IMG/VR virus record: IMGVR_UViG_3300007263_000130
Location: 16,909-61,484 of that record
DNA length: 44,576 nucleotides
Reading direction: 5' to 3' (one strand)
Source of the DNA: a virus
Below the pieces are notes generated by a model. That model ran no database searches. It was given only the letters and a program-made list of their open reading frames with translations, and was not told the origin of the DNA. Within the stretch, counting starts at the first letter, position 1. Each line of letters begins with the position of its first letter. The position numbers were made by a program, and so were the translations under genes. This document shows positions 16,145 through 40,698 of this stretch, piece by piece.

Positions 16145-16735
16145 CTATACATTCTCCTCAGTAGAATCTAAATCCACACTAGGGACTTCTTCCACTGAAT
16201 TTTCATCAAGTCCAAGTTGTCTCAATGTAACTTGAACTTCGGTTAACATTTCTGCTGGTGATGAGTTCCCATAAGGGTCTTCTTGTGCATTATCAGTAAG
16301 ATTTGGTTCTGGGCAGAATAATTCTACAGTACCATTTACAACTAACATTGCATATCTCCAAGACCTTAGTCCAAAACCTAGATTGTCTTTTTTAACTAAC
16401 ATACCTAAACTTCGTGCAAGGTCTCCGCATCCATCTGCAAGTGGTTTGACTTTCTCAATACCTTGACTTTCGAACCATGCATTCATTACGAATGTATCGT
16501 TTACAGATGTACAGTAGATTTCATCTACTCCAGATTCAATGAACTGGTCGTACATTTCTTCAAAGCCAGGTAATTGTTGAGTCGAACAAGTTGGAGTGAA
16601 TGCCCCAGGCAGTCCAAAGATAACAATTTTCTTGTCATCCATTAATTGGTCTAAGTGAACAACTTTCCAGTCATCGTTTTCACGAACATGAAATATGACA
16701 TTGGAAAGGTCGTTTAAATTTCCTTTGTTTAACAT
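16145..16735 (-). CDS. Peroxiredoxin, Prx5/AhpE-like
   Basis: The 196-residue protein carries the peroxidatic motif PGAFTPTCS (about residues 43-51; Cys50 is the peroxidatic Cys), then a typical Prx5 pattern (DEIYCTSVNDTFVMNAW; GLRSWRYAMLVVNGTV). It reduces peroxides with thiols from the host. In a phage it could protect the infected cell in lit, oxidising surface water. A sigma70-like promoter lies at 16771-16798 and an AAGG site before the ATG. Confidence 0.88.
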   Translation of the reverse strand: MLNKGNLNDLSNVIFHVRENDDWKVVHLDQLMDDKKIVIFGLPGAFTPTCSTQQLPGFEEMYDQFIESGVDEIYCTSVNDTFVMNAWFESQGIEKVKPLADGCGDLARSLGMLVKKDNLGFGLRSWRYAMLVVNGTVELFCPEPNLTDNAQEDPYGNSSPAEMLTEVQVTLRQLGLDENSVEEVPSVDLDSTEENV

Positions 16736-17870: not shown

Positions 17871-18497
17871 TTATATTAGTTTTTTACAAGTTCTTTTTGC
17901 TCTGTGAGTCACATTTAAGTTATTACCAATAACAATTGCCATGAAAGCATTTGTTGACCTTATGGTTCTTTTGTTTAGATTACCATTTTTTCTATCGTAT
18001 TGAATTGCTGGTGTTAATACTGCAAACTTAGTAAAGAACATATCGTTGACTGTTGGTCTTTTACCGAACAATGGATTTGCTTCTTCTATACATTCGTATT
18101 TAAGACCACGATAGGTTGTATAGATATCTGCAAGTTGTAATGTGACAAACAATGTCCAATCAAACTTAGTAGGATGGTCAATCAGTTCCCAGTGGTGTGT
18201 ATATTCGAACCTTTTCGGATTTACCTTTAACAAGTATCCTGTCGACTTCTCTAAATGCTCTTGATGGACATAATCGATAAGTTCTTTCCGATAACAACAA
18301 GTCCACCCCATCATAATTTCTTGTTTGTCCCTCAAGTCGAGCTCCCAAGTTAACGGCATCTCCGATGACTGAATAGTCAAATCTAATTTCTGACCCCATG
18401 TTTCCGACAATACATTCTCCTGTGCTGATGCCAATGCCGACATTAATAGGAGGCAAGTTGAGAGGAGAAAGCTCTTGATTAAGTTTCTTTGTTGCAT
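17871..18497 (-). CDS. DUF5658-like membrane protein, start uncertain
   Basis: The C-terminal ~100 residues look like a small membrane-protein family with the pattern LADIYTTYRGLKYECIEEANPLFG (compare 'D..tTyiGL....EaNPl'). The frame is open for 320 nt into the cyclase gene. Its first ATG (18497) has GGAAG upstream and encodes a signal-peptide-like start (FLLSTCLLLMSALASA, cleavage after ASA). Either the protein has a signal peptide overprinted on the cyclase domain, or it starts at a rarer codon near 18180 just after the cyclase stop. The C-terminal part is the safe part. Confidence 0.55.
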   Translation of the reverse strand: MQQRNLIKSFLLSTCLLLMSALASAQENVLSETWGQKLDLTIQSSEMPLTWELDLRDKQEIMMGWTCCYRKELIDYVHQEHLEKSTGYLLKVNPKRFEYTHHWELIDHPTKFDWTLFVTLQLADIYTTYRGLKYECIEEANPLFGKRPTVNDMFFTKFAVLTPAIQYDRKNGNLNKRTIRSTNAFMAIVIGNNLNVTHRAKRTCKKLI

Positions 18498-20025
18498 CTA
18501 ATACTTCCAATGCAGATTTAACTGCTAATTCAGCATGGTCTTTGCAATCAAGAGGTGCATTCCAGAATGCCATGATGCAATCACCCATGTATTTGTCTAT
18601 TGTTCCTTTATTATTTATGATTATCTTAGTCTGAATGTCAAGAAACTTATTGATTAGTTCTACTAATCCCTCTGGGTCATCATCGTTCTTATACTTTTCA
18701 CTGATAGGTGTGAACCCACATATGTCCATGAACATGAAGGTCATCTCTTTTCTCTCTCCACCGAGTTTTAAAAGTTCTGGATTCTTTGCAAGTTCATCTA
18801 CCATCTCTGGTGATAAGTACTTTTTAAATTGTCCTTTGATTTGTTCTTTTAACTTGTAGGTTACAAAGTACTTGTTGAAGGATGCATGTCCGAATACCAG
18901 TAAACCTGTTAAGGATGCATAAAGTGAATCAAACAGTATTAAGTTTTCTATCCATATCCAATAAGATACTGCAACTGAAAAACCAATTACAGTTATTGAT
19001 GCAATACCAGATAGGTATGTTGGGAATTGATATACCATGAATAAAACTAAAAGTCCCAGACCGATGACCAGAACTATTTCTGCAAAATCCAGAAGAAAAT
19101 TATTCTGGATTCTGTCACCAGAAAGTACAGTTTGGAGTAAGTTTGCTTGTACTTCATGAGGATACATAACACCATATGGAGTAGAAACTGGATTATTAAA
19201 TCCCTCTGCTGTCATTCCCCAGATAAGTATTTTGTTCTGGTATGATTCATCCAGTTCTGATGCACTTACTCTTTGAAACTTGTTCCAGTATGTTATCATA
19301 ACATCTGATGTAGATGTAGTTTCTATAGGTTGTTGTCGACCCATTCGTATCCATTCGATACCTACTTCTGGTGTCACTCTGGTTTGATAGTTTGGTTGGT
19401 CGTAATATGCACGAAGAGTTTCAAGTGCAACCGATGGATATATCTGGTCATTTGCAGAAACGATAAGTGGTGCAGACCGAACAGTTCCATCAAAGTTTGG
19501 TGTATCTGGTAAAGGTGGAGTAGAAACTGTTACTCCTACACCATAAGTGTTATCTTGTAGTACTTTGATAGGTGCAGAGATACCAGAAAAGTTCCAGATA
19601 GAATCTTTAATATCTCCACCACCGAATACCGAAGTCTTTACATATGGTGCAGAACCAGTATCTTTTTGACTTGTTGGAGCTGCAGATAAGACACTCAATC
19701 TATTTACAAGACCTTCTGCAAACTGATTATCTCCACCGAATCTATCTGGTTGATTGAATACTTGAGTAAATACATGAGTATTGGTGTAATGTGATTCTAA
19801 CATAATATCTGCATAGATATTACGAGGCCATGGGTATTGACCATACTTGTCTAATGATTTTTCATCAATATCTACAAGTACAATGTCTTTTATGTGTTGA
19901 GATTCTTTTTGTTGATGTAATACATCACAGTAAGACCACTTGATATTCTCTACAAGATAAGGTGACCATATCTTTAAACCTACCAACACTCCAAGTGTAA
20001 GTAGAACTGTTTTCCAATTATACAT
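18178..20025 (-). CDS. CHASE2-domain class III adenylate cyclase
   Basis: This is a 615-residue protein. It has an N-terminal membrane helix (about 5-22), a CHASE2 extracytoplasmic sensor domain (about 45-300), three further membrane helices (about 310-383) and a cytoplasmic class III cyclase domain (about 425-612). Metal-binding Asp434 (FMDICGF) and Asp482 (KYMGD), purine-specifying Lys478 and Asp550, and catalytic Asn559 and Arg563 (DAVNLGARLEG) are all in place, so it should make cAMP. The sensed signal is periplasmic and unknown. It lies in the curli transcript directly downstream of the curlin genes. A phage-encoded sensor cyclase is very unusual. Confidence 0.9.
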   Translation of the reverse strand: MYNWKTVLLTLGVLVGLKIWSPYLVENIKWSYCDVLHQQKESQHIKDIVLVDIDEKSLDKYGQYPWPRNIYADIMLESHYTNTHVFTQVFNQPDRFGGDNQFAEGLVNRLSVLSAAPTSQKDTGSAPYVKTSVFGGGDIKDSIWNFSGISAPIKVLQDNTYGVGVTVSTPPLPDTPNFDGTVRSAPLIVSANDQIYPSVALETLRAYYDQPNYQTRVTPEVGIEWIRMGRQQPIETTSTSDVMITYWNKFQRVSASELDESYQNKILIWGMTAEGFNNPVSTPYGVMYPHEVQANLLQTVLSGDRIQNNFLLDFAEIVLVIGLGLLVLFMVYQFPTYLSGIASITVIGFSVAVSYWIWIENLILFDSLYASLTGLLVFGHASFNKYFVTYKLKEQIKGQFKKYLSPEMVDELAKNPELLKLGGERKEMTFMFMDICGFTPISEKYKNDDDPEGLVELINKFLDIQTKIIINNKGTIDKYMGDCIMAFWNAPLDCKDHAELAVKSALEVLDATKKLNQELSPLNLPPINVGIGISTGECIVGNMGSEIRFDYSVIGDAVNLGARLEGQTRNYDGVDLLLSERTYRLCPSRAFREVDRILVKGKSEKVRIYTPLGTD

Positions 20026-20233
20026 TTAATTCTTCTTCTAGTTCTATTATATAGTCTTTCATATCAATCATCCACTCTTTGAGTCTCCGATGTTGTTTGT
20101 TGTGAAATTCTTTGTAGTACTTATCTGTTGATTGGATTGCCATTGCTTGATGATAATCCATAGTTTTTAATACAAGTGCAATTGCATCTTGATATGGCAT
20201 TCTCACTAAGGTTGAAAACTCTCTCTTTGTCAC
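20018..20233 (-). CDS. Small helical protein, GTG start
   Basis: This 71-residue charged helical protein (MDYHQAMAIQSTDKYYKEFHNKQHRRLKEW...) starts at GTG 20233 with AGGAG 9 nt upstream. It overlaps the cyclase start by 8 nt. It has no known domain. Its position between a curlin gene and the cyclase makes it part of the same operon. Confidence 0.6.
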   Translation of the reverse strand: MTKREFSTLVRMPYQDAIALVLKTMDYHQAMAIQSTDKYYKEFHNKQHRRLKEWMIDMKDYIIELEEELNV

Positions 20234-20245
20234 TCAAAATAACTC

Positions 20246-20914
20246 CTAGTTTCCTTGAGTCACATTAACAGTACAACCACCAGATGTATAACAATTCTGA
20301 GTCAATGAATATGTCTGATTTGTTCCACCTTGTTGTAAGAGATTTAATGTTGTAGGTTGGTTACCTTGTATTCTAATTTGTGCATTGTGATTACCACTTC
20401 CCTTTTGAGTCATGTCTGTTATAGAACCATCTGAATTACCATAAAAATATGCATGACTGTAATGAGTACCACTACCTTCTTGCCATGATTCATGGACTAC
20501 ATCATCTGCATGAATATCTAAGTTATGTGTATGGTCTCCACTCTGATAGATGTCTACAGTGTTTTCATCACCCCATATATGTCTACCATATGTTGCACCA
20601 TCATATTGTATTACTGATTCAGTATTGTTTGAACCATCAACATCACCACCCCAGTTCTTACCAGAACCCCAGTATGAAACCCATGAGATTGAGTTTCCAG
20701 TACCTACTTGCAAGAAATCAAATGTATTGTTTGAATGTGCAAATGAAAAGTTAATTGTATTTCCATATCCCTGTTGAGTTGCAGTGATTGATAAGTCATC
20801 ACCAGCACCACCCACTTGTTCTATATGAATATGGTTGTCATCACTAGGCCCTGCATATACTGGTAACCCAATACTAATTAGACTGATTAATAATAATTGT
20901 CGAATCATCTCCAT
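20246..20914 (-). CDS. Curlin-repeat protein (CsgA/CsgB-like), secreted
   Basis: The 222-residue protein has a signal peptide (RQLLLISLISIGLPVYAG, cut near AG). Curlin-like repeats follow, with the recurring Q-G-N spacing: IEQVGGAGDDL, TQQGYGNTI, LQVGTGNSI, IYQSGDHTH, MTQKGSGNHN and LLQQGGTNQ. Such repeats stack into cross-beta amyloid fibres outside the cell. Two cysteines near the end (NCYTSGGC) are unusual for CsgA. The start overlaps the FecR gene by 41 nt. It is probably exported through the CsgG encoded upstream. Confidence 0.82.
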   Translation of the reverse strand: MEMIRQLLLISLISIGLPVYAGPSDDNHIHIEQVGGAGDDLSITATQQGYGNTINFSFAHSNNTFDFLQVGTGNSISWVSYWGSGKNWGGDVDGSNNTESVIQYDGATYGRHIWGDENTVDIYQSGDHTHNLDIHADDVVHESWQEGSGTHYSHAYFYGNSDGSITDMTQKGSGNHNAQIRIQGNQPTTLNLLQQGGTNQTYSLTQNCYTSGGCTVNVTQGN

Positions 20915-22016
20915 CCCCTATGAGGATTATACCCTCATATCCTTCTACTATTGTTTCTAGATATACATTTGAACCACTTCCAAATGCAATCTCTATAACT
21001 CCATTTACATCTCTAAAGAAGATTAACTTTTCATCTTCAATAAAGACATTGTATTGTGAGTCTTGGTTCAATCCTAATACTGCACCTTCGACTCTAAAAG
21101 TTCCGATACTACCACCAGTACTATCTGATGATGCACCTCTTATTTTCTTATCCAGTTCTTCTATAACATCAAGAACATCTACAAGTAAGTCTACATTCAA
21201 TGCATCTATATCTAATGCAGTGAAATCATCTTCCATTGTTTCTTCGAGTTCATCTTTTTCCAACTCATTAAATTCTAGGAAATCTACATCTAGAATGCCT
21301 TGGTCTTGGTCGAGGTCATCTGCAGCTTGTTCTTCTATTGCAATTTTAACCTCTTGTGGTGGATTGACAATAAACATGTTATCAATCATTGAAGGTGTAA
21401 TGTTCTGAATCGTTACTGCAACTGTTGGTGGTGTCTCGAAAGAAGATACCATTGTTGCTTGATAAGGTTGGTTCAATAACATTTCACCACCTTCATTACT
21501 CACCACTATTTCTCCAGATGCAAAACCATCATCATCTGGAAGCAAAACTACAAGTGACCTACCAAGTTCATCAATTGTAGTTGTAAAATCTGTTCCATTT
21601 ATAGCAATCTGTGCCGTAGGTGTGGAGACCTGTATGTTTGCTTTCTTAATTTTCTTCCCACTTCCACTAGCAAACCTTGCAGTACCCTGTGCCATTCTAA
21701 TTGACATCTTGGATAAAGATGGATTAGGGTCATAATAAACTTCATCAATGTACACTCTAGTATGTTCAGTTAATGCAAGTTCTTCTTCATCTAAGAACTC
21801 AATCAACATACGACCATTTACTGTTTGTGCTTCATCATATAAAACGATATCTGAACCTACATTACTAGGTAGTCTTTCGTTATTTCTAACTATACCACCT
21901 ACACCTGTAGACTCTACAATATCTCCTATGGGGTCTTGTGCATAGACAGACCCCATAAGTAGAAATGCACTAACTATCGTTAGCTGAATCTTTTTGATTA
22001 ATTTGAATTGTTGCAT
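20874..22016 (-). CDS. FecR-domain exported protein with acidic region
   Basis: This 380-residue protein has a signal peptide (IQLTIVSAFLLMGSVYA), then a FecR domain at about residues 35-160 (TGVGGIVRNNERL, EFLDEEELALTEHTRVYIDE, VSTPTAQIAINGTDF). A very acidic middle (about 230-290, rich in Asp and Glu) follows. The C-terminal ~90 residues are rich in beta strands. FecR domains in bacteria sense or scaffold in the periplasm and often occur near CHASE2 cyclases. It may anchor or nucleate the curlin proteins on either side (inference). Confidence 0.82.
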   Translation of the reverse strand: MQQFKLIKKIQLTIVSAFLLMGSVYAQDPIGDIVESTGVGGIVRNNERLPSNVGSDIVLYDEAQTVNGRMLIEFLDEEELALTEHTRVYIDEVYYDPNPSLSKMSIRMAQGTARFASGSGKKIKKANIQVSTPTAQIAINGTDFTTTIDELGRSLVVLLPDDDGFASGEIVVSNEGGEMLLNQPYQATMVSSFETPPTVAVTIQNITPSMIDNMFIVNPPQEVKIAIEEQAADDLDQDQGILDVDFLEFNELEKDELEETMEDDFTALDIDALNVDLLVDVLDVIEELDKKIRGASSDSTGGSIGTFRVEGAVLGLNQDSQYNVFIEDEKLIFFRDVNGVIEIAFGSGSNVYLETIVEGYEGIILIGDGDDSTIIINQSN

Positions 22017-22713
22017 TATCAGAATCTATGTCCATGATGATTTTTGCATCTGGAGTTGCACATGAATTACCAGACCCAGAAACACATGTTCCAGATACTT
22101 GGTTAATATCAATGTCACCACTGTCACCTGTATAATCTACAGTCTGAGTATGAGCACCATCTTTCATTAATACATTTAGGTTGTTACTGTCACCAGTAAT
22201 TTCCCAATTAAAAGTGTTATCATCTGATTCAAAGTCTAAGTCAAAAACATTTGAATTACCAATAATGGTCATATCCAAATCTAATCTTTCTGCACTAAAC
22301 TGGTAGCCTTGGTCTAAATCCCAAGTATTCGAATCACCTGTTACTGTAATATCGTATACTGAATCATCAGCAGACCCTTGATAACCAATATTCCAATCTA
22401 AGACATTCGAATCCCCTGTAAATGACAAATCAAAATCCGATGTGTCTGCAATCAAAGGGCCGAATAATTTATTCTGGTTACCTATCTGGTCGATATCAAT
22501 AGTAAGCGTAGTACCTGTTATGACCATCTTTTCATCAGCATCAGAGTTGTTTGCAACTTTGTTACCGAATCCTACTTGGTCAATATAAAGGGTTAAAGTA
22601 TCCCCTTCTTGGTCTATTCTAATCTCATTGTCATCAGTTGCTTGTGCGAAAAGAATGTTAGTCGACATTAGTGCAATTAAGCAAAAACTAATTAGTTTCT
22701 TCATTTTCTTCAA
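21970..22713 (-). CDS. Curlin-like repeat protein, secreted
   Basis: The 247-residue protein has a signal peptide (ISFCLIALMSTNILFAQA). The mature part has repeated strands of about 22 residues with N/Q ladders: IDQEGDTL, IDQVGFGNKV, IDQIGNQNKL, then a run of GDSN/GNSN turns (FTGDSNVLDW, VTGDSNTWDL, IIGNSNVFDL, ITGDSNNLNV). It is much more acidic than CsgA. The two cysteines near the C-terminus recur in the other curlin-like protein. Likely a second amyloid subunit or nucleator. It overlaps CsgG by 26 nt and FecR by 47 nt. Confidence 0.78.
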   Translation of the reverse strand: MKKMKKLISFCLIALMSTNILFAQATDDNEIRIDQEGDTLTLYIDQVGFGNKVANNSDADEKMVITGTTLTIDIDQIGNQNKLFGPLIADTSDFDLSFTGDSNVLDWNIGYQGSADDSVYDITVTGDSNTWDLDQGYQFSAERLDLDMTIIGNSNVFDLDFESDDNTFNWEITGDSNNLNVLMKDGAHTQTVDYTGDSGDIDINQVSGTCVSGSGNSCATPDAKIIMDIDSDNATIQINQKDSANDS

Positions 22714-23710
22714 GCTCCTCGAAAGGTTCTAGTTTCTCACCAGTAATGTTTTCAACTTCATCATACCATGCGTCCACAGCATGTTTATCATTAGTACCAT
22801 CACTCTGATGAGGATGTCTATGACCTTCCTCTATTACCCAATAGCCTCTATCGTGGCCTTGGTATATTAATTCCAACACTCCTGCTTCAATAGCACTTCG
22901 TGTTGCGTATGTCACCGACTCATTATTACCCACTCCATCCTCGATTTCTACTAACTGAGTTCCTTCTTCGATGAATCTAAAAACATCACCACCAGAACCA
23001 TAACTCAATATAGTTTTTCGAGTCTGTACATTTAATAAAACTTCTCCAGTTAAAACAGAGACAGCTCTAATTGAAACTGTTACAGCATCTTGTCGATACT
23101 GTTTAGTAAAACCAATACCAAGTGTTCTAGCACCTTTTCCGCCAGTCTTGATATTAGTATCATAACCTATAACTCCACCTTCAATAATCATGCCTGCAAA
23201 GAGCATAGGTGCAATTCCTTTTGACTCTTCACCTTTTGCATCTGCCCACTCTTTCCTTGCAGAACGAATGATTTGTCTTTCTCTTACTAGGTGGTCTAAT
23301 CCTGTTCTTTCTACAACTCTAAACCATGTTCCACCACCAGCAGTTTTTAGTGCATCTATTAACATTGCATCTGCACCTTGAGTCACTGCTGTCGAGAACG
23401 AAGCATACTGGTCTAATTGTTTTCTTTGACCAGTCAAATCTTGGAATTTATAAACTGCAACAATGGGTTGTTCCTTTGCTGGTGGTAAGTCTAGTAATTC
23501 CAGATATGCTGGAAGTTTTACAACGATAGGACTTTCTACACAAATATATTGTCTAGTCCATGCCTTTGCAACTCCAGTGACTATATCTTTTCTAAATCCT
23601 TCTTCAAACCTTCCTGTTTCATATGCACAATCAGCTGGGTTCTCAGAGAACTTAGGTGTTGATGCACATCCAGTTAGGAATACAAAGGTTAGTAATGCAA
23701 CCCATCTCAT
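22688..23710 (-). CDS. csgG: CsgG-type outer-membrane curli secretion lipoprotein
   Basis: The 340-residue protein has a lipoprotein signal with lipobox LTGC (Cys15). CsgG features follow: IVAVYKFQDLTGQRK, a long amphipathic pore segment with ADAMLIDALKTAGGGTWFRVVERTGLDHLVRERQI, IIEGGVIGYDTN, and RAVSVLTGEVLLNVQTRKTI. CsgG forms a nine-subunit outer-membrane channel that lets unfolded curlins out. The length is slightly above E. coli CsgG (277 residues) because of a C-terminal acidic tail. It shares one base with the csgF stop. Confidence 0.92.
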   Translation of the reverse strand: MRWVALLTFVFLTGCASTPKFSENPADCAYETGRFEEGFRKDIVTGVAKAWTRQYICVESPIVVKLPAYLELLDLPPAKEQPIVAVYKFQDLTGQRKQLDQYASFSTAVTQGADAMLIDALKTAGGGTWFRVVERTGLDHLVRERQIIRSARKEWADAKGEESKGIAPMLFAGMIIEGGVIGYDTNIKTGGKGARTLGIGFTKQYRQDAVTVSIRAVSVLTGEVLLNVQTRKTILSYGSGGDVFRFIEEGTQLVEIEDGVGNNESVTYATRSAIEAGVLELIYQGHDRGYWVIEEGHRHPHQSDGTNDKHAVDAWYDEVENITGEKLEPFEELEENEETN

Positions 23711-24231
23711 TAACCGCCCCCATCACCATCACCAGAACCATCATCACCAAAGTATCCTGTTCCGATTGGTATTTCAATAACTGTTGATGAACCTTCTTGG
23801 TCAACAATAGTCATTCTGATGAACTCTGTACCATCTTCGTTTGTAATAACTTCATATGTAACTGTAGAACCTTCTAAAACAAATGACCCAAATCTTACTG
23901 GGTTGTCATTTGAAAACATAGATTCGACTAATTGTTTTGCCATCTGAGCATAAATTCTGCTCTCTAAATTTCTAATAAATTTTGCAAGAGTTGTATTATC
24001 TGCTTCTCTTTCTGCAGCTTTCCTTGCAGCCTCAAGTGCATCTTCGATTGCCTTCTTTCTGCTGAACTCTTGGTTCTCGATTGTAAGATAATGTGCGCCA
24101 GTCCCTATTCCACTGAACGATGGATTCTTAAACTGGTGTTTAATTTCATCTGCTTTTACACTTGATGCACCAAATACTAAAAGTATTATCCATCCAAGAA
24201 CTAGTAATTCTTTATCCTTCTTTAGTTTCAT
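23710..24231 (-). CDS. csgF: CsgF-type curli assembly protein
   Basis: The start at ATG 24231 (AAAGGAAAAGG upstream) gives 173 residues; the longest frame adds 13 Lys/Arg-rich residues. A signal peptide (LLVLGWIILLVFGASSVKA) is followed by the CsgF hallmark KNPSFSGIGTGAHYL, the segment that plugs into the CsgG pore. A helical stretch and a beta-rich end with a Gly/Asp-rich tail come next. CsgF couples secretion to nucleation at the cell surface. It overlaps the upstream membrane gene by 20 nt. Confidence 0.88.
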   Translation of the reverse strand: MKLKKDKELLVLGWIILLVFGASSVKADEIKHQFKNPSFSGIGTGAHYLTIENQEFSRKKAIEDALEAARKAAEREADNTTLAKFIRNLESRIYAQMAKQLVESMFSNDNPVRFGSFVLEGSTVTYEVITNEDGTEFIRMTIVDQEGSSTVIEIPIGTGYFGDDGSGDGDGGG

Positions 24232-24496
24232 CCTTTTCCTTTTCCTCTTCCAAGTATTTCTGTCTTTCACGATATTCTAAGACAACATTAATCTTTTGCT
24301 GAAGTCTTATCATGTCTTGGTCTAACATTCTGAGTTGGTCTGTTAACTTGATTGCACTTGCAAACATTCGACCTAATGAGGGTTTAATCTCTTGAGTTAC
24401 AAATTTCCATGTAAAATAGATAAAGTAACCCATTCCCAATGCCATTGCGACTGGAAATCCGAACTCTGCAATTACTTGTGCTATCTTTTCCATCAA
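24212..24496 (-). CDS. Membrane protein with coiled-coil tail (first of a pair in reverse order)
   Basis: In this 94-residue protein one transmembrane helix (FPVAMALGMGYFIYFTW) is followed by a long charged helix ending in a Glu/Lys run. The order (N-terminal 'EFGFPVAMALGMGYFI', then helix) is the same as in the gene just upstream (SEVGVPIFGAVVMAFFIF), so they look like diverged duplicates. It overlaps the upstream gene by 4 nt (ATGA). Possible roles are a holin-like or inner-membrane helper for curlin export; neither is proved. Confidence 0.65.
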   Translation of the reverse strand: MMEKIAQVIAEFGFPVAMALGMGYFIYFTWKFVTQEIKPSLGRMFASAIKLTDQLRMLDQDMIRLQQKINVVLEYRERQKYLEEEKEKDETKEG

Positions 24497-24786
24497 TCTC
24501 TTCTTGCATCGATTGTCCCATCCTCTACAAAGTTCTCTGCCCTAGCAACCCTATCTATAGGTGGTGTTAGTTCTAATGCACTACTCACCAGTAAATCGAT
24601 TCTTAAAATGTCATTATTCATGACTTTTGCACGAGTTTCTAACATATTAATGATATTTTCTGTGCTTTTTATTTGTCCAATTACAGAGTCAAAGATATAT
24701 TTCATACTTAAAAATATGAAAAATGCCATAACGACTGCACCAAATATAGGCACACCCACTTCACTCATAAAGTTTAATAAAGACAT
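24493..24786 (-). CDS. Membrane protein with helical tail (paralogue-like)
   Basis: The 97-residue protein has an N-terminal transmembrane segment (VPIFGAVVMAFFIFLSMKYIF) and then an amphipathic helix (IKSTENIINMLETRAKVMNNDILRI without enzyme motifs). It is the first gene after the late promoter at 24806-24813 and has a strong Shine-Dalgarno (AGGAGAG). It forms a pair with 24212-24496. Confidence 0.65.
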   Translation of the reverse strand: MSLLNFMSEVGVPIFGAVVMAFFIFLSMKYIFDSVIGQIKSTENIINMLETRAKVMNNDILRIDLLVSSALELTPPIDRVARAENFVEDGTIDARRD

Positions 24787-25756: not shown

Positions 25757-25997
25757 GATTTTCTAATTCTTTCTCAATTGAATCTATCCTCTGGGATAGT
25801 AATGGATAATCTTGTCTCCATTTTGCCTCTTTCTTTGCAACTTCGATATCATATCGATTTGCAATCCATGCCATCAATCCATTTACATAGTTCTGAAACC
25901 AGATACCGAGTTTAGTTGATTGAAACCATTTATAGAAAGAACTTCCTATAATAGAAGACAAAATTGATTTAAGTGTAAGAGTTATTAGGAAACTCAT
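25743..25997 (-). CDS. Small membrane-associated protein with coiled-coil tail
   Basis: The 84-residue protein has a hydrophobic N-terminal helix (FLITLTLKSILSSIIGSSF), a Trp-rich amphipathic section (WFQNYVNGLMAWIANRY) and a charged coiled-coil end (QRIDSIEKELENLKKS). Its start overlaps the lipase stop by 4 nt. A holin-like role is possible, because it follows a lipase, but that is only a guess. Confidence 0.6.
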   Translation of the reverse strand: MSFLITLTLKSILSSIIGSSFYKWFQSTKLGIWFQNYVNGLMAWIANRYDIEVAKKEAKWRQDYPLLSQRIDSIEKELENLKKS

Positions 25998-26761
25998 TTG
26001 GATGCATTCGATAGATGTTTTATATAATCATCTATGTTATGGTCTGCAACAAAGTCTATCCGACCTTTGATGATAGTAGATAGCAATCCCCAACCTTTAT
26101 CTCTGATTCTTTCCCAAGACCATCGACCAAGATTAGTTACTTGTCCATTTGATTTTATATAAACACAACTACCATTGTGTCTCCATCTGAATACTGTAGG
26201 TACACAAGGTACAACATCGTTGTTGTTTACATGTCTTTGATGTTTTAAATGTTTATCACACCACTTAGAAAACTGAGGGCCTCCTGCTCTTGGAGAACCA
26301 TATGTGAACAAAGTATCAACATCAGTCTTTTCAACATATTCTAATCTAGATGCAATCAATGTTGCCATTGCACCACCAAGTGAATGTCCACAAACCCATA
26401 TCTTTTTATTGAGTCCATATCTTTCGACTCTTGCAAGAACATGTTCCCAGACTTTATCTACTTCACCTCTAAATCCTTGATGGATTTGACCGACTCCTGT
26501 AAAAGAATCTTCTTTGAATATCTCTAAGTCTGCATAGATATCATTCATTTGAGTAGGTTCAGTACCTCTGGCTGCAATAACTAAATCAGTATTGTTATGC
26601 CATACATGAACTTGAGCACCATCTATATCAAATAGTTTATGTGCTTTCATACCTTTTCCTTTACCAAACATTTTTCCATCTGCTTGATTCATGTATGCAG
26701 CTTTAGAATACTCTGCAAAGAGTAATCTTTGTTGTGGTAGGGTTAGGTTGTCCATGTTCAT
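25994..26761 (-). CDS. Class 3 lipase (alpha/beta hydrolase)
   Basis: The 255-residue protein has the full triad of a class 3 lipase: Ser127 in GHSLGG (125-130), Asp182 in NNDVVPCVP and His241 in VADHNIDDY. The lid/oxyanion strand VIAARGTEP is also typical. It has no signal peptide, so it would act in the cytoplasm or at the inner membrane, possibly on membrane lipids around lysis or on an ester in storage material. It follows regA directly (TAA then ATG). Confidence 0.88.
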   Translation of the reverse strand: MNMDNLTLPQQRLLFAEYSKAAYMNQADGKMFGKGKGMKAHKLFDIDGAQVHVWHNNTDLVIAARGTEPTQMNDIYADLEIFKEDSFTGVGQIHQGFRGEVDKVWEHVLARVERYGLNKKIWVCGHSLGGAMATLIASRLEYVEKTDVDTLFTYGSPRAGGPQFSKWCDKHLKHQRHVNNNDVVPCVPTVFRWRHNGSCVYIKSNGQVTNLGRWSWERIRDKGWGLLSTIIKGRIDFVADHNIDDYIKHLSNASK

Positions 26762-29889: not shown

Positions 29890-30935
29890 AAAAATGCTTC
29901 TAAACTACCTTTCTCTTCATACTTACTTGCATGTTGACCAATAGGTTTTTCTGATTTACCACCTTGACCTTTTGTTGCAACATCTGTTGAACAATATGCA
30001 ACACATGATAATCTTATTCCATCACCTTCAATCTTGGTAACTCCATGTATCTCATTTGAATCTGCAATCAATACATCACCATCATCTGCTTCAATGGCAA
30101 CTCCATATCTTGGGAATACCAAGTATGCACCACCAAAGTCACCTATTCTAAATACGCACATAGTAGTCATACCAAACTCCAAATCTTTACCATCTACATG
30201 TGCAGACATCTTTGCAGTTCCTTCACTTGAATATCTATTTGCAGATAGAGTTGTTATAGGAGCTCCACCCAAGTGATACTTCTCTTCAATACATTCATCT
30301 GCATATGTTCTTTGTAGTTTCCAGATATCTGGACATCCTTTCTTAAGTGCTTGTTCATTGATAGTTGCAATCTGTTGCATCTTCTCCCACTTTTCTACAT
30401 TAGATTTCTTTTCACACCAGTTTGATAATCCTATCATACCAGTAAATCTACCTCTCTTGTATCCAGCAAAAACAGAATGAATTGCATTTGCTTCTGCAAT
30501 ACGATTGAACTTACCATTCTTTTTAAGTGGATAATAAGAGTTTGGAGTTCTTAAAACATAATCTTTACCTTCTATCAATCCTTTCTTTTTCATTTCTTCG
30601 TGGTCGATAGGGCCTGCTGCATTTGCTCTCATGGTTGATACATCATCTATAGAATACAATGTATCTTTTACTTCGTTGTAGGTATCACCTGTATATGCAT
30701 TCTTAACGATACATGCAAGTAATGGTTTATCAAATAATGAACCACTTGGTTTATATATTTTTATGATATCATCTTCGACACCAATCGATGATACTACATC
30801 ATCGTAGGATGTTTCATCCAACCACTTACCATTGAACTGGTCGTGGGTTTCTTTTTTTCCTAAGTCTTTTCTTGCAGTAAATTCCATGGCTCTAGTACCT
30901 GTTCTTTTATTTGTTGGACAAGATAGTACAAACAT
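29886..30935 (-). CDS. TET/JBP-type 2OG-Fe(II) dioxygenase
   Basis: The frame has 349 residues. The catalytic core is complete: His246 and Asp248 (SAHVDGK), a GGAYLVFPRYGVAIEADDGDVLI strand pair, distal His297 (NEIHGV) and 2-oxoglutarate-binding Arg308 (GDGIRLSCVAY). This order and spacing match TET/JBP enzymes, which oxidise 5-methylpyrimidines in DNA. The start is uncertain: Met17 (30887) is an alternative and would cut the overlap with the methyltransferase from 76 to 28 nt. The gene lies directly after a cytosine-C5 methyltransferase and before two glycosyltransferases. Confidence 0.87.
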   Translation of the reverse strand: MFVLSCPTNKRTGTRAMEFTARKDLGKKETHDQFNGKWLDETSYDDVVSSIGVEDDIIKIYKPSGSLFDKPLLACIVKNAYTGDTYNEVKDTLYSIDDVSTMRANAAGPIDHEEMKKKGLIEGKDYVLRTPNSYYPLKKNGKFNRIAEANAIHSVFAGYKRGRFTGMIGLSNWCEKKSNVEKWEKMQQIATINEQALKKGCPDIWKLQRTYADECIEEKYHLGGAPITTLSANRYSSEGTAKMSAHVDGKDLEFGMTTMCVFRIGDFGGAYLVFPRYGVAIEADDGDVLIADSNEIHGVTKIEGDGIRLSCVAYCSTDVATKGQGGKSEKPIGQHASKYEEKGSLEAFL

Positions 30936-32125
30936 AATGGTGCAACCATTAATCCTATCCTTGCACCTTTATCATTGTAGTCTCCAGTCATTTTATAGTC
31001 GTTTGGTAAAGTCATAAGTCTTACCATTTCTTTTGGTGTGTATATTCTCTTACCACTATAGTGGAAGTGATTACCACCCATAAACTTTGGTTGACATCCT
31101 TGTTCTGTTAAGGAATGTGCTGGTAAATGTTTTGGAACAATCCTTGACATATAATAAGAATGTTTTTCATCCTCTGGTTTTAAGTGACCATTTTTAATTT
31201 GTTCTAAAAACCAAGGCTTAACAATATCATCACCTATAGATATATAGGCAGAATTAGATTTCCTTTTTAACACTGGTTCTAATCCTTCACATGGGCCACA
31301 ATGTACATAGTCTGGGTCTGGATGTTTATCAAACCCATTTATCCAGTGTGACTTAGATGATTCATTCATAGAATCTACAAGGTATTCTGCATCCTTGATG
31401 TTCTCTTCATCATCTATTAGGTCATCTATTGCTTCTGCAATTGATGTTCTACCTTCTGTTGTGTCTGGAAACAAACCACTTAGACACATAAAGGGCATTC
31501 CAATTGCATCTAATACATCATCCCTAACTGCAACTATGAACACTCGTTCTCTCTTTTGTGGAACTCCATGTTCATGACCTTTCATGATTTTCCATGTAAC
31601 TGAATATCCTATCTTCTCAAAATCTACAATCATCTTGTTCAGATGGTCTCTTGCATAATCCATTGATAGACCTTTTACATTTTCACATACGATAACTTTA
31701 GGCATTACTTCTTCTGCAATCCTAATCATTTCCCATGTAAGGTCTTCGATGTTTGTTTGTTTCATTCCATATGCAACCTTTTCCTTGTTCCACCCTTCTC
31801 TTTTAGAACCAGCCATAGAGAAAGGTGGACAAGGTGGTGAACCATCCATAATGTCTAGTTCACCTTTTTGTAAACCAGTCATTTCTAAAATGTCTTTACC
31901 TGTAACTTCTTTAATATCTTTACACTCATGAACTGTATTAGGAAAGTTTGCAAGGTAAGTATCAACATGAATCTGTTGGAACTCATTCATATACTTTACA
32001 TCACCACCAGCAAGTTTATATGCACAAGAACTTCCACCACCACCAGCAAAGAAGGTAATGTAATCAAACTCTTTTCTTGCAGAGTTCTTGTATAAATCAT
32101 CTAGTGTGTATTGAAAGTATTTCAT
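30860..32125 (-). CDS. DNA cytosine-C5 methyltransferase
   Basis: The 421-residue protein has ordered C5-methyltransferase motifs: I, TFFAGGGGSS (24-33, SAM binding); IV, GSPPCPPFS (catalytic Cys99); VI, ENVKGL (148-153); VIII, QKRERVFIVAVR (190-201). A variable target-recognition region of about 120 residues follows, with motifs IX and X at the end. No cognate type II restriction enzyme is obvious. The operon instead gives it a TET-type partner, so it more likely makes 5mC as a substrate for oxidation. It overlaps the upstream oxygenase by 4 nt. Confidence 0.92.
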   Translation of the reverse strand: MKYFQYTLDDLYKNSARKEFDYITFFAGGGGSSCAYKLAGGDVKYMNEFQQIHVDTYLANFPNTVHECKDIKEVTGKDILEMTGLQKGELDIMDGSPPCPPFSMAGSKREGWNKEKVAYGMKQTNIEDLTWEMIRIAEEVMPKVIVCENVKGLSMDYARDHLNKMIVDFEKIGYSVTWKIMKGHEHGVPQKRERVFIVAVRDDVLDAIGMPFMCLSGLFPDTTEGRTSIAEAIDDLIDDEENIKDAEYLVDSMNESSKSHWINGFDKHPDPDYVHCGPCEGLEPVLKRKSNSAYISIGDDIVKPWFLEQIKNGHLKPEDEKHSYYMSRIVPKHLPAHSLTEQGCQPKFMGGNHFHYSGKRIYTPKEMVRLMTLPNDYKMTGDYNDKGARIGLMVAPLCLYYLVQQIKEQVLEPWNLLQEKT

Positions 32126-36854: not shown

Positions 36855-37038
36855 TTTCAAAACTCCTTATCCTTGCTGGGATAACTATATTCCAATTACA
36901 ATCATCACAAACTCTGTCCTCATAATTTTCAAGAACTGGTTGTGGATTATTTCCAAATCCAGTAAAAGACCCTGTACACAAGGCACAGGGTCGAGGAGAA
37001 GTAGACTCTAGTGAGGTCTTACTATATGTTGAGTCCAT
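36847..37038 (-). CDS. Small zinc-ribbon-like protein
   Basis: From ATG 37038 (GAGG upstream) it has 63 residues. CALC and CDDC, about 27 residues apart, form a four-cysteine zinc-binding pattern. The longest frame begins at 37062 inside the CobS-like gene. It may bind nucleic acid or protein. No family is assigned. Confidence 0.6.
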   Translation of the reverse strand: MDSTYSKTSLESTSPRPCALCTGSFTGFGNNPQPVLENYEDRVCDDCNWNIVIPARIRSFEND

Positions 37039-38191
37039 CTTCATCCTCATTAACTGTATCATCTTGACCTAAGATGTTTTCATCAACCTTTGTGTAAAGG
37101 TCAAGGAAGGTTGCTTTGGTATCTTCATCGAACCTTGCAAGACATACCTCGATTGATTTCATTTTATCATTGAACATTGAGAATGCCTTTGCAATGTGAA
37201 CCAACCTTCTAGTTGAAATCACTTCATCAACAGCACCCTCGTAAAAAGACTTTCTGATAACATCTGCCCAGTCGACAAGTTTATCTGCAAACTCATCATC
37301 GTTGACACCAAGAATTGCAAAGTCACCTTTGACAATTTTCTTCTCAGTTGCAACTGGTGGATATTCTTGTTCAAGACAGATTGCAAACCTTTCAAGGAAT
37401 GCTTCGTTCAAGATGTTAGTTCCTATGAACCTTCCATCCTCAGAACCTTTACCTTTAGTATTTGCAGTTGCAACCACTGTAAACCCAGGCTCTGGTTTTA
37501 CAAACTCACCAGTCTTCTTGATTAAGTAACCACCACCTTCTAGGATGGATTGTAGACACATAATCTTGTTAGATGCAAGGTCGACTTCATCAAGAAGAAG
37601 AACAGCACCTTTTCTCATTGCTTTGAGGACAGGGCCCTCTTTGAAAACAATGTTACCATTGATTAGAGTATTTGAACCAATCAAATCATCTTCATCAGTC
37701 TCAATTGTAATGTTGACTCTGAAAAGTTCCTTCTTGAGTTTGGCACATATTTGTTCAACCATCAAGGTTTTACCATTACCACTCAAACCAGTAATAAACA
37801 CTGGGAAGAAAACTCCAGACTTAAGAATTGACTTAAGGTCTTTGAAGTGACCAAAAGGAACATAGTTGTCCATCACTGTAGGAACAACTGAAATGTTTTC
37901 ATCAAGAACATTCATACCAACATTTGCAACTGGAACTGGAACTGATTCAACAGTTTGAACATTTGCAATAGTTGGTGCAACTGGTTCTGAATAATTACTA
38001 GGAACAACAGATTCAATGGAATAAGTTCCATAACCTGCCTTGAATTGTGGTTTTCTAATCAACCACGAAGGAAAAGGGATACCTGCCGTATCACAAATTT
38101 TCCTAACAGTGGATTTAGAAAACTCCACTTGACTTGGATATTGTTCTGCACAGGCATCCAAGAACCTGTAATGATTTGCATTCAAATTCAT
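37022..38191 (-). CDS. cobS: CobS/MoxR-type AAA ATPase
   Basis: From ATG 38191 (GTGAGG upstream) it has 389 residues; ATG 38224, the exact predicted transcript start, would add 11 residues. It has a short N-terminal region with SNYSEPVAP-type linker, Walker A TGLSGNGKT, Walker B LLLDEVDLA, the sensor TVVATANTKG and the CobS-like NEAFLERFA. CobS helps insert cobalt in B12 synthesis, and MoxR-like ATPases work with VWA partners. No CobN is seen here, so a chaperone role with the neighbour is also possible. Confidence 0.86.
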   Translation of the reverse strand: MNLNANHYRFLDACAEQYPSQVEFSKSTVRKICDTAGIPFPSWLIRKPQFKAGYGTYSIESVVPSNYSEPVAPTIANVQTVESVPVPVANVGMNVLDENISVVPTVMDNYVPFGHFKDLKSILKSGVFFPVFITGLSGNGKTLMVEQICAKLKKELFRVNITIETDEDDLIGSNTLINGNIVFKEGPVLKAMRKGAVLLLDEVDLASNKIMCLQSILEGGGYLIKKTGEFVKPEPGFTVVATANTKGKGSEDGRFIGTNILNEAFLERFAICLEQEYPPVATEKKIVKGDFAILGVNDDEFADKLVDWADVIRKSFYEGAVDEVISTRRLVHIAKAFSMFNDKMKSIEVCLARFDEDTKATFLDLYTKVDENILGQDDTVNEDEDGLNI

Positions 38192-38230
38192 ACTAACCTC
38201 ACTTTTTGAATTATTTTTTACCATATGTGT

Positions 38231-38260
38231 ATTATATCAAAATATGTACCCATCATGCAA
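38231..38260 (-). promoter_or_regulatory. Sigma70-like promoter with GGTAC spacer element (cobS)
   Basis: TTGCAT (weak -35), 18-nt spacer with GGTAC, TATAAT. The +1 coincides with ATG 38224; the second ATG at 38191 has a Shine-Dalgarno and would be served by a 33-nt leader. Confidence 0.65.
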
Positions 38261-40562
38261 CCTTCTTAACGAAGTGCTGAAGTATTTTTCTTTGGGACAT
38301 TTTGTTGTTACCCATTCTTTTCATTGCACCCTTCAATGCTTGTTTACTTGCACCAGCATCTACATCTAAAGTGTCATCTTCTGCAACGATACCCATTTTC
38401 TTTTTGTTTAGAATGTAGAACTCTTTGTATCCACTCTTTTCAGTAGTTGGAACTGAGAATCCACCTTCTCTTCTGAATAACTTGTAACCTTCTGATTTAG
38501 TTTCCCAGTCGAAGTAAGTGCCACCAAACTTGTCAACAGCTGCATCAAACTCTCTGTGCTTGTTAGGACAGATGAAGAATCCAACAGTGTCAACACCAGT
38601 AGTTCTTTCAATCCATTTTAGAAGATTGTTAGTACCATTTCTACCACCATTAGAGTTGTACTCGAAAGTAGTCTTGGTTCTTCTATCGTGAATCATATGG
38701 TCATTTCTCCAACCATTGAAACCATTCATTCTGAAACTATCTCCATCAGTTAGAGTAACGAACTGTAACTTGTCGATTGAGTAGTTATGTTTGAAATCTG
38801 CAATGTAGTCTCTTAAGAACATTAGGGACTCATCAAGAGGTGTACCACCTAATGCATAGTTGTAATCATGAGTATAACCAGCATCGAATCTTGAACCTTT
38901 TCTTGCATTAGAGTAGTAGTAACCACCATCGCACATTGATTCAAGTTGTGCATTCATGACAACACAAGCTTCTTTGAAATCTCTTTTGTTCATTTTATCA
39001 GAGAACAACTCGATAAGTCTTAGACTATCGTTGAAGTTGAATTTACCTTTTTCATCTTCTCTGTAAGTGTCTCTATCAACACCTTCTCTCCATGCATCAG
39101 TAAATGCATATACTCTATGAGGAATACCAACTCTTCTACAGAACATTGTAAGAACTATTGATTGTTCGTAAGTCTCTCTGATTGCATCATACATAGACCC
39201 AGACCAGTCAACCAACATAATCACACCATGATTTTTTCCATCAGGCACGATAGTTGCTCTTTTGAAGATATCATCTTTGATTAGGTACTGGTGGATTTTT
39301 GACATATCCAGTTCACCAGTTTTTGCAGACATTGATTTCTTGTATGCATCTGCAGCCTTTCTCATATCAAATTCTTTTGCCATGTAGTTAATGACATTCT
39401 TGTTGTGGTCTAAGAATTTTTCAGTGTACTCTTTAGAATTTGCAAGGGTATCAGTAGAATGTTCATATTCTCTTTTACCATCTTCCATAGTTCTAGTGAT
39501 ATCTGCAATCATCTTAGTATAAGGAATTGTAATATCAGATGCTTTGTAATCTTTAGAGTTGAACTCCATGTAACATGGTTCTGAATCCCACTCATCTAAT
39601 TCTTTATGAAGTTTGTCTTCATTGTTTCTGAAATTTTTATCAGTGATAGATTCTTTTGCATTATCTGAAACTGGTGCATCACCACTTTGACCACCTTCTT
39701 GACCAAACTCACCACCTTCTAGGTTTTGAGATTTTTCAGACTCACCTTCACCAACTGAATCAGAATCAGATGATTCTTCATCTTCTTCGCTTGGACTCTC
39801 AGTTCCATCGTTTGAGCTTGAACTTTCATCTGATTCTTCATCTGTATCTGATTCTTGATTACCACCTAGTGATTCTTCTGCATTACCCTCACCTTCTTGT
39901 TCATCGAAGTCTTGAGGAATTGTATCACCATCACCTTCCATAGTCTCAACAGTTTGCATTGACTTATCAGTTTGTGGTTCTAGGTCTTCTAGTTTAGATA
40001 ACTCATAAAGATAGTCTGCAACAGTGACTACCTTTTCCCAAGTATCCATTTTAGTGTCTATTTGATTTATGATTTTTTGTTCTTCTTTAGAGAACTCAAC
40101 CATAAGATTGTGACCAATCTTGAAGTAAAGATTGATTCTATCGATAAATGCAAGTTTGTTTACATCGTAACCTTTAACTCCAAAGAAGTCTAAGTCATTG
40201 TGTAATTCAGAATATGCATCATAGAAAACTTTTCTAAGACCAGCATATTTTGATTTGATGTGTTTCTCAATCCTTACATCTTCAAGGACATTTAGATATC
40301 CTTTGTATTTTGCACCCTTTTCTGAAACTGCATCATGCCATCCATCTGCTGGAGTGATAAGTGCATGACCAACCTCATGACCCATGAATAAGTCATAAAG
40401 TTGTGCAGACATATCATCCTTAAGAATAGGACATACTAGTTTCCTTGAATCTACTTCAAAGTATGCAGTAGGGACTTTCTTGTGTTCTATAACTAAATCC
40501 TCAGTTGCAAGTAACCTTGCAAGAGAATCCTTTTGTGTTCTTAATTGATTATTTGACCTCAT
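38253..40562 (-). CDS. CobT-like VWA-domain protein with HEVGH metal motif
   Basis: From ATG 40562 it has 769 residues; the frame is open 13 codons further but only through the promoter. It holds a HEVGH motif (62-66) with a later Glu in NVLEDVRIEKH, like a zinc metalloprotease site. A long acidic Ser/Glu/Asp linker (about 205-300) follows, then a VWA domain with the metal-ion site VDWSGS (451-456), and a C-terminal YALGGTPLDESL metal-site segment. It pairs with the CobS-type ATPase downstream, as MoxR-VWA or CobS-CobT pairs do. Whether it assists chelation or protein remodelling is open. Confidence 0.82.
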   Translation of the reverse strand: MRSNNQLRTQKDSLARLLATEDLVIEHKKVPTAYFEVDSRKLVCPILKDDMSAQLYDLFMGHEVGHALITPADGWHDAVSEKGAKYKGYLNVLEDVRIEKHIKSKYAGLRKVFYDAYSELHNDLDFFGVKGYDVNKLAFIDRINLYFKIGHNLMVEFSKEEQKIINQIDTKMDTWEKVVTVADYLYELSKLEDLEPQTDKSMQTVETMEGDGDTIPQDFDEQEGEGNAEESLGGNQESDTDEESDESSSSNDGTESPSEEDEESSDSDSVGEGESEKSQNLEGGEFGQEGGQSGDAPVSDNAKESITDKNFRNNEDKLHKELDEWDSEPCYMEFNSKDYKASDITIPYTKMIADITRTMEDGKREYEHSTDTLANSKEYTEKFLDHNKNVINYMAKEFDMRKAADAYKKSMSAKTGELDMSKIHQYLIKDDIFKRATIVPDGKNHGVIMLVDWSGSMYDAIRETYEQSIVLTMFCRRVGIPHRVYAFTDAWREGVDRDTYREDEKGKFNFNDSLRLIELFSDKMNKRDFKEACVVMNAQLESMCDGGYYYSNARKGSRFDAGYTHDYNYALGGTPLDESLMFLRDYIADFKHNYSIDKLQFVTLTDGDSFRMNGFNGWRNDHMIHDRRTKTTFEYNSNGGRNGTNNLLKWIERTTGVDTVGFFICPNKHREFDAAVDKFGGTYFDWETKSEGYKLFRREGGFSVPTTEKSGYKEFYILNKKKMGIVAEDDTLDVDAGASKQALKGAMKRMGNNKMSQRKILQHFVKKVA

Positions 40563-40568
40563 GTAAGT

Positions 40569-40598
40569 ATTATATAAAAAAATGTACCTATGTGTCAA
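40569..40598 (-). promoter_or_regulatory. Sigma70-like promoter with GGTAC element, leaderless placement
   Basis: TTGACA, 18-nt spacer with CATAGGTAC, TATAAT, then 6 nt to ATG 40562. The +1 is the A of the ATG and no Shine-Dalgarno exists. Confidence 0.75.
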
Positions 40599-40621
40599 CA
40601 AGATTATCTCATTGACTGAAT

Positions 40622-40698
40622 TGGCGTTCCCAGTAGGATTCGAACCTACAACCTTCGGTTTAGAAGACCGATGCTCTCTCCTGTTGAGCTATGAGAAC
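40622..40698 (-). tRNA. tRNA-Arg (anticodon UCU)
   Basis: A 77-nt cloverleaf reads on the minus strand: acceptor GTTCTCA pairs with TGGGAAC, the D-arm has AGCTC...GAGC, the anticodon loop is CTTCTAA (TCT), the T-arm has GGTTCGAATCC, and the CCA end is encoded. It reads AGA and AGG, codons favoured in AT-rich phage genes. It lies at the end of the structured transcript from 40991. Confidence 0.95.

Follow-up and report, generated by a model that had tools for sequence, protein, structure and literature searches.

The closest described systems are the curli (type VIII secretion, T8SS) gene clusters of pelagiphages. The curli genes themselves have been described in two reports (PMC7029224, PMC9004378), and a 2022 paper (PMC9599517) noted FecR and an adenylate cyclase (AC) in pelagiphage curli clusters, the absence of the gate protein CsgE and of CsgD from pelagiphage operons, and, in a podovirus, a histidine kinase upstream of the curli operon. 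Phage Melnitz is reported to cause no clumping in culture (PMC9004378). Our term search of PMC7029224 and PMC9004378 returned no mention of the cyclase, and the passages searched in PMC9599517, PMC7029224, and PMC9004378 do not mention a CHASE2 domain, active-site residues, a FecR tail, or a missing receptor. A literature search on CHASE2 with FecR in phages returned nothing relevant. Several cellular systems share parts of the arrangement. CsgG, CsgF, and curlin repeats are common to E. coli csgBAC-csgDEFG and the phage operon, but only in the latter are FecR and the cyclase operon members. The FecR and CHASE2 cyclase pairs of Alphaproteobacteria and other bacteria have the same two-domain enzyme architecture and catalytic residues, whereas no curli genes stand in the flanks compared for 80 such loci. 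The class IIIb enzymes CyaB (3r5g) and Spirulina CyaC (1wc0-1wc6) have the same cyclase fold, metal Asp pair, Lys, Asn, and Arg, but possess other N-terminal sensors, and CyaB has Thr where the enzyme described here has Ser at the base-selecting position. Lastly, FecR/PupR cell-surface signalling proteins have the FecR beta domain in common with the phage FecR, which differs by having no cytoplasmic anti-sigma part, by an N-terminal signal-like helix, and by an extra beta domain with a curlin-like end.

The stretch of DNA that we analysed (44,576 nucleotides, hereafter the window) comprises positions 16909-61484 of an IMG/VR virus record of 61,484 bases. Within it, T4-like replication genes flank a cyclase gene with a FecR gene and curli genes beside it (Table 1). 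Using tblastn, we found relatives of the cyclase in Pelagibacter phage HTVC008M (KC465899; 41 percent identity) and in four Melnitz isolates (MZ577097; 35 percent), where the gene is already annotated (as adenylate/guanylyl cyclase in HTVC008M), as well as in hundreds of viral contigs. The preliminary description, made from the sequence of the window, had called such an enzyme in a phage surprising and had proposed a search for similar genes. Since the HTVC008M and Melnitz relatives and the published pelagiphage clusters (PMC9599517) precede it, the observation is not new in kind; what is added here is the near-invariant gene order, a reverse test from CsgG, the FecR tail, a clade with an Asn-to-Ser change, and the receptor gap.

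Table 1. Features of the cyclase and curli operon (window coordinates)
Feature	Position	Strand	Evidence or remark
CHASE2-class III adenylate cyclase (predicted), 615 aa	18178..20025	-	ORF, Pfam, AlphaFold2 mean pLDDT 89, PHROG 35576 E 7e-171
Class III cyclase domain, residues 426-606	18208..18750	-	Guanylate_cyc E 5e-19; Foldseek 3r5g TM (target) 0.89
CHASE2 periplasmic sensor domain (predicted), residues 15-327	19045..19983	-	Pfam PF05226 E 5e-31, model
71-aa ORF between curlin 2 and cyclase	20018..20233	-	in only part of window-type clade (17 loci)
Curlin-like subunit 2	20246..20914	-	Curlin_rpt 21.4 bits, above cut-off; weak CsgA match
FecR-domain protein, secreted (predicted)	20874..22016	-	FecR E 1e-8; AlphaFold model; Foldseek PupR/BDI_1681
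FecR C-terminal strand 372-378, invariant Gln378, curlin-like tail	20883..20903	-	
Curlin-like subunit 1	21970..22713	-	Curlin_rpt 19.1 bits, just below cut-off; weak CsgA match
CsgG outer-membrane curli pore	22688..23710	-	E 1e-52
CsgF	23710..24270	-	E 2e-14
Small single-helix membrane protein, PHROG 18771	24212..24496	-	conserved across the three clades
Second small membrane protein, PHROG 18771	24493..24786	-	

The DNA polymerase of the window phage is at most 47 percent identical to those of database phages, and we place this phage in a T4-like lineage separate from the HTVC008M and Melnitz pelagiphages. A tRNA-Arg (TCT) at 40622-40698 has its closest matches in SAR11-order genomes (86 percent), which is only suggestive of a SAR11-order host. 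Elsewhere the window encodes a C5-cytosine DNA methylase (30860-32125), a class 3 lipase (25994-26761), and a peroxiredoxin-like protein (16145-16735). At 37022-40601, an AAA ATPase with a CbbQ_C domain adjoins a 782-aa protein that has no Pfam match; we take the two to be possibly a cobS/cobT-like pair of marine T4-like phages.

The open frame named in the preliminary description exists and encodes 615 residues, but it is read from the minus strand; stops abound on the other strand of the same interval. Its assignment as a CHASE2 sensor joined to a cyclase held, with both domains scoring above the Pfam gathering cut-offs and PHROG 35576 spanning the whole protein. Likewise, the proposed periplasmic sensor and membrane helices agree with hydropathy and with an AlphaFold2 model based on phage and bacterial relatives: one N-terminal membrane helix (residues 4-20) is followed by a periplasmic domain of ~270 residues, three further helices (310-333, 336-361, and 367-400), and a cytoplasmic cyclase. 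The CHASE2 domain is thus N-terminal, with membrane helices after it. By Foldseek, the modelled cyclase part superposes on Pseudomonas aeruginosa CyaB, Cya2, and CyaC. An ORF at 17871-18497, in a different frame, shares the final 320 bases of the cyclase gene; it has a signal-peptide-like start and a C-terminal DUF5658 match (27 bits). We regard it as lying outside the module, because outside the overlap it has no counterpart in any other phage locus compared.

We next consider the active site. Asp434, Lys478, Asp482, Asn559, and Arg563 all occur at the numbers given in the preliminary description, the two Asp being the metal ligands and Asn559 and Arg563 the transition-state residues. All five are conserved without exception in the covered homologues of window type and HTVC type, as well as in the 80 cellular proteins most closely related to the enzyme (80/80). 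The Lys478/Asp550 pair given in that description, in contrast, is ruled out. More specifically, adenine selection falls to Ser552, located seven residues ahead of Asn559 and matched in the alignment by a Thr of CyaB (3r5g). The same 80 cellular relatives have Ser (63) or Thr (17) at position 552, whereas position 550 varies (Asp, Asn, Ala, or Ser). Because of this residue set, with Ser552 in the place that can hold Asp, Thr, or Ser, we classify the enzyme as K-S/T (IIIb-like) and, as judged from its residues, complete. It should make cAMP from ATP, and the protein is probably a phage-encoded, catalytically active CHASE2 sensor enzyme. Median dN/dS values of 0.07-0.09 for the cyclase domain indicate purifying selection, and within the window-type clade this domain (0.09) is more constrained than CHASE2 (0.17).

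The cyclase is the last gene of an operon ordered csgF-csgG-curlin-FecR-curlin-cyclase on one strand, in which the genes directly upstream mostly overlap. The preliminary description had linked the cyclase to FecR and curlins; their position as same-strand neighbours is confirmed, while co-transcription is deduced from gene order. CsgG, CsgF, and curlin subunits are all present, the curlin repeats being weak. A promoter scan scored below chance. Ahead of csgF stand the two PHROG 18771 proteins (24212-24786), relatives of which occur in loci of all clades; we saw no kinase domain in them, but a holin model matches one copy weakly (E 0.0035).

The same order is found in HTVC008M and Melnitz, and all but a few of the viral contigs with cyclase relatives that were long enough to check have the operon. 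Where the sequence extends 5.5 kb or more upstream of the cyclase gene, the operon genes stand there in 45/45 loci of window type, 22-23/23 of HTVC type, and 50-52/54 of Melnitz type. A search from CsgG alone, chosen to avoid conditioning on the cyclase, recovered the cyclase, FecR, CsgF, and curlins in 77/77 viral loci for which 6.5 kb or more of downstream sequence was available, on contigs as long as 337 kb. These 77 were the top scorers of each scan rather than a random sample, and part of them coincide with contigs already selected by the cyclase. The order csgF-csgG-curlin-FecR-curlin-cyclase is nearly invariant in these phage loci, and the cyclase gene is very probably a working part of the phage curli operon. 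The module also occurs on contigs of 236 kb (L463), 168 kb (L466), and 337 kb (L481), far above pelagimyophage genome size, and so may extend beyond the published pelagiphages.

In cells, the closest homologues are for the most part CHASE2 cyclases of Alphaproteobacteria (31-37 percent identity), and the phage CHASE2 domains form a single clade (SH-aLRT 99) in trees that, for CHASE2 and cyclase domains alike, come from quick searches without bootstraps. FecR is the immediate upstream same-strand neighbour in ~14 of the 80 nearest bacterial loci, and curli genes (CsgG, CsgF, or curlin) accompany the cyclase in 0/80 within the flanks compared. The proposed likeness to bacterial sensor modules therefore extends to the FecR neighbour and not to the curli genes. 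Conversely, bacterial curli loci of one class (three with CsgF above cut-off) had no AC or FecR within ~3.4 kb.

The phage FecR contains the FecR periplasmic domain (PF04773), with fold matches to PupR (6ovk) and BDI_1681, and no further Pfam domain above cut-off. In the AlphaFold model, the protein begins with a signal-like helix (residues 2-25); the FecR beta domain comes next, and an acidic, disordered linker joins it to a second beta domain at the C terminus. The cytoplasmic domain and single membrane helix of an anti-sigma protein are not found. The last strand reads [IVLF]x[IVLF]xQ and resembles the last strand of the neighbouring curlins. We picked this pattern from nine sequences of three phages and then applied it to larger sets: it ends 167/170 and 43/43 phage FecRs (210/213), compared with 7/2242 other ORFs of at least 150 aa, 0/281 CsgG and CsgF proteins, and 0/26 bacterial FecRs near CHASE2 cyclases. 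Gln378, in a protein of 380 residues, is among just 28 invariant columns. Comparing the C-terminal domain with curlins by hhalign gave a weak, end-locked match with a probability of 34 percent at best, against ~1 percent for controls; beyond the last strand, the likeness of FecR to curlins is weak. The tail suggests that the phage FecR is handled by the curli pathway.

Melnitz-type enzymes differ at the active site, in that Asn559 is replaced by Ser and position 552 is Asp in 79/80 covered sequences. At first sight the change can be taken for a loss of the base-selecting Asp; re-registering the motif excludes this and yields Asp552 with Asn559 replaced by Ser. Distant loci keep the pairing (Asp552 with Ser559; Ser or Thr552 with Asn559), and two (L482 and L485) are intermediates with Asp552 and Asn559. 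The Melnitz-type cyclase domains group on one long stem, whereas the CHASE2 domains joined to them are placed in two or more parts of the sensor tree; between HTVC- and Melnitz-type proteins, mean identity is 52 percent for sensors versus 37 percent for cyclase domains. By these trees, the Melnitz-type cyclase domain is exchanged between related CHASE2 sensor lineages. To look for cells from which the N-to-S motif could have come, we scanned 289 genomes of one class (with an alphaproteobacterial centre) with a degenerate DNA pattern; the single match did not exceed the reversed control, and no source was thus found in this class. Mutation of the transition-state Asn lowers activity in mammalian enzymes. 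Decay of the Melnitz-type cyclase is unlikely, because the domain is strongly constrained (dN/dS ~0.07), and the substitution in a large related clade indicates that high cAMP output is not required in every module.

To ask where cAMP could act, we scanned 58 SAR11-order genomes and 17 AC-bearing phage records, two of them complete isolate genomes. Class III cyclases and CsgG were each absent from all 58 genomes, and the cyclic-nucleotide-binding domain PF00027 occurred in four, as one weak match each in an 870-residue frame; the copy examined is acyltransferase-linked. The order is that of a genome (G213) that matches two SAR11 16S probe sequences exactly. PF00027 was likewise absent from the record of the window phage and from the 17 phage records, so that we found no phage-encoded cAMP receptor of this family. 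Among bacterial genomes carrying CHASE2 cyclases, 8/8 have the domain. A literature search for a Pelagibacter cAMP receptor returned nothing relevant. Judging by these genomes, SAR11 cells seem unable to use the usual cAMP-CRP route.

We propose that the enzyme is an inner-membrane sensor, with CHASE2 in the periplasm, three membrane helices after it, and the class III cyclase, presumably a dimer as class III cyclases are, in the cytoplasm; it would report the periplasmic state of FecR and curli and form the signalling arm of the phage-encoded curli (type VIII) secretion operon. We give this reading roughly even chances. CHASE2 would most likely read the partner FecR or the curli subunits while they are in the periplasm, distinguishing, for instance, substrate that awaits export from substrate already passed through CsgG, and the cAMP level would be adjusted to that reading. 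We know of no ligand for CHASE2 domains in general, and the co-occurrence of the CHASE2 cyclase with FecR does not show contact. The domain make-up, the intact catalytic residues, strong purifying selection, the near-invariant operon, and a FecR with a signal-like helix and a curlin-like strand are observed, whereas catalysis, FecR as the CHASE2 ligand, and the link to secretion status are our inference. A more elaborate version appears rather improbable: a self-contained secretion-status circuit in which FecR is a curli substrate or fibre-end protein read by CHASE2, the receptor is of a non-CRP type, and the Asn559-to-Ser/Asp552 branch, swapped between sensors, has a changed output.

Several other explanations were weighed against this sensor. 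That the gene is bacterial contamination, a misassembly, or a recent passenger, as the preliminary description allowed, we consider practically negligible: T4-like replication genes flank it in the window, the same operon recurs with few exceptions in isolated phages and related viral contigs, identity to the nearest bacterial genes is only 31-37 percent, and the phage sensors form a clade of their own, while the dN/dS values and the 77/77 reverse association rule out a passenger. The preliminary description had further suggested that the phage resets host cAMP control and had proposed a check for CRP-family regulators in the host. Phage cAMP would then change transcription during infection through such a regulator, and the intact cyclase, the PF00027 proteins of the CHASE2-cyclase bacteria, the CRP-family receptors of many proteobacteria, and the reported effect of cAMP on curli expression through CsgD in enteric bacteria (PMC9599517) would all fit. 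The check has the opposite outcome for the 58 SAR11-order genomes, which have no class III cyclase and only four weak PF00027 matches, and for the 17 phage records, which include the complete genome of HTVC008M, isolated on SAR11, and have no PF00027; a reset by the CRP route is therefore unlikely if the host is SAR11. Overall, we regard this route as unlikely.

In another explanation, the enzyme is a sensor or scaffold only, mainly a membrane anchor around which FecR and the curli pore are organised and whose catalysis is of minor importance or, in some clades, gone. The Asn559-to-Ser change fixed in most Melnitz-type enzymes, the exchange of cyclase domains under related CHASE2 sensors, and SAR11-type hosts without a known receptor are in its favour, but the window-type clade keeps its catalytic residues, with a cyclase domain under tighter constraint than the sensor, and we hold a pure scaffold to be improbable to a similar degree. 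Very unlikely is an exported signal, in which cAMP leaves through an ungated CsgG-CsgF pore, or is released when the cell lyses, and reaches other cells or phages nearby: this would account both for the missing internal receptor and for the coupling to an outer-membrane pore, and the CsgE gate is among the genes not found in pelagiphage operons (PMC9599517), yet the inner membrane stands between cAMP and the pore, the host community is not known to have a receptor or an uptake route, and the idea is purely inferential. Least probable of the functional explanations is counter-defence, with the cyclic nucleotide as a receptor decoy competing with Pycsar or CBASS second messengers. The cyclase domain does match PADLOC PycC models (best 91 bits), a result to be expected of every class III cyclase; Pycsar pairs a cyclase with a cyclic-nucleotide-binding effector, and neither the record nor the 17 other phage records contain PF00027. 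Moreover, no defence genes neighbour the cyclase among the genes scanned, its catalytic residues are those of ordinary bacterial CHASE2 adenylate cyclases, a large periplasmic sensor would be unnecessary, and the strict curli partnership would go unexplained.

Should the cyclase prove active, phages that are abundant in the ocean would be supplying a second-messenger synthase to cells with, apparently, neither such an enzyme nor its usual receptor. In the CsgG-selected loci, this cyclase is tied without exception to a phage-made amyloid secretion system of puzzling purpose, and the FecR tail, the receptor gap, and the Asn-to-Ser clade make the question of why pelagiphages carry curli specific and testable.
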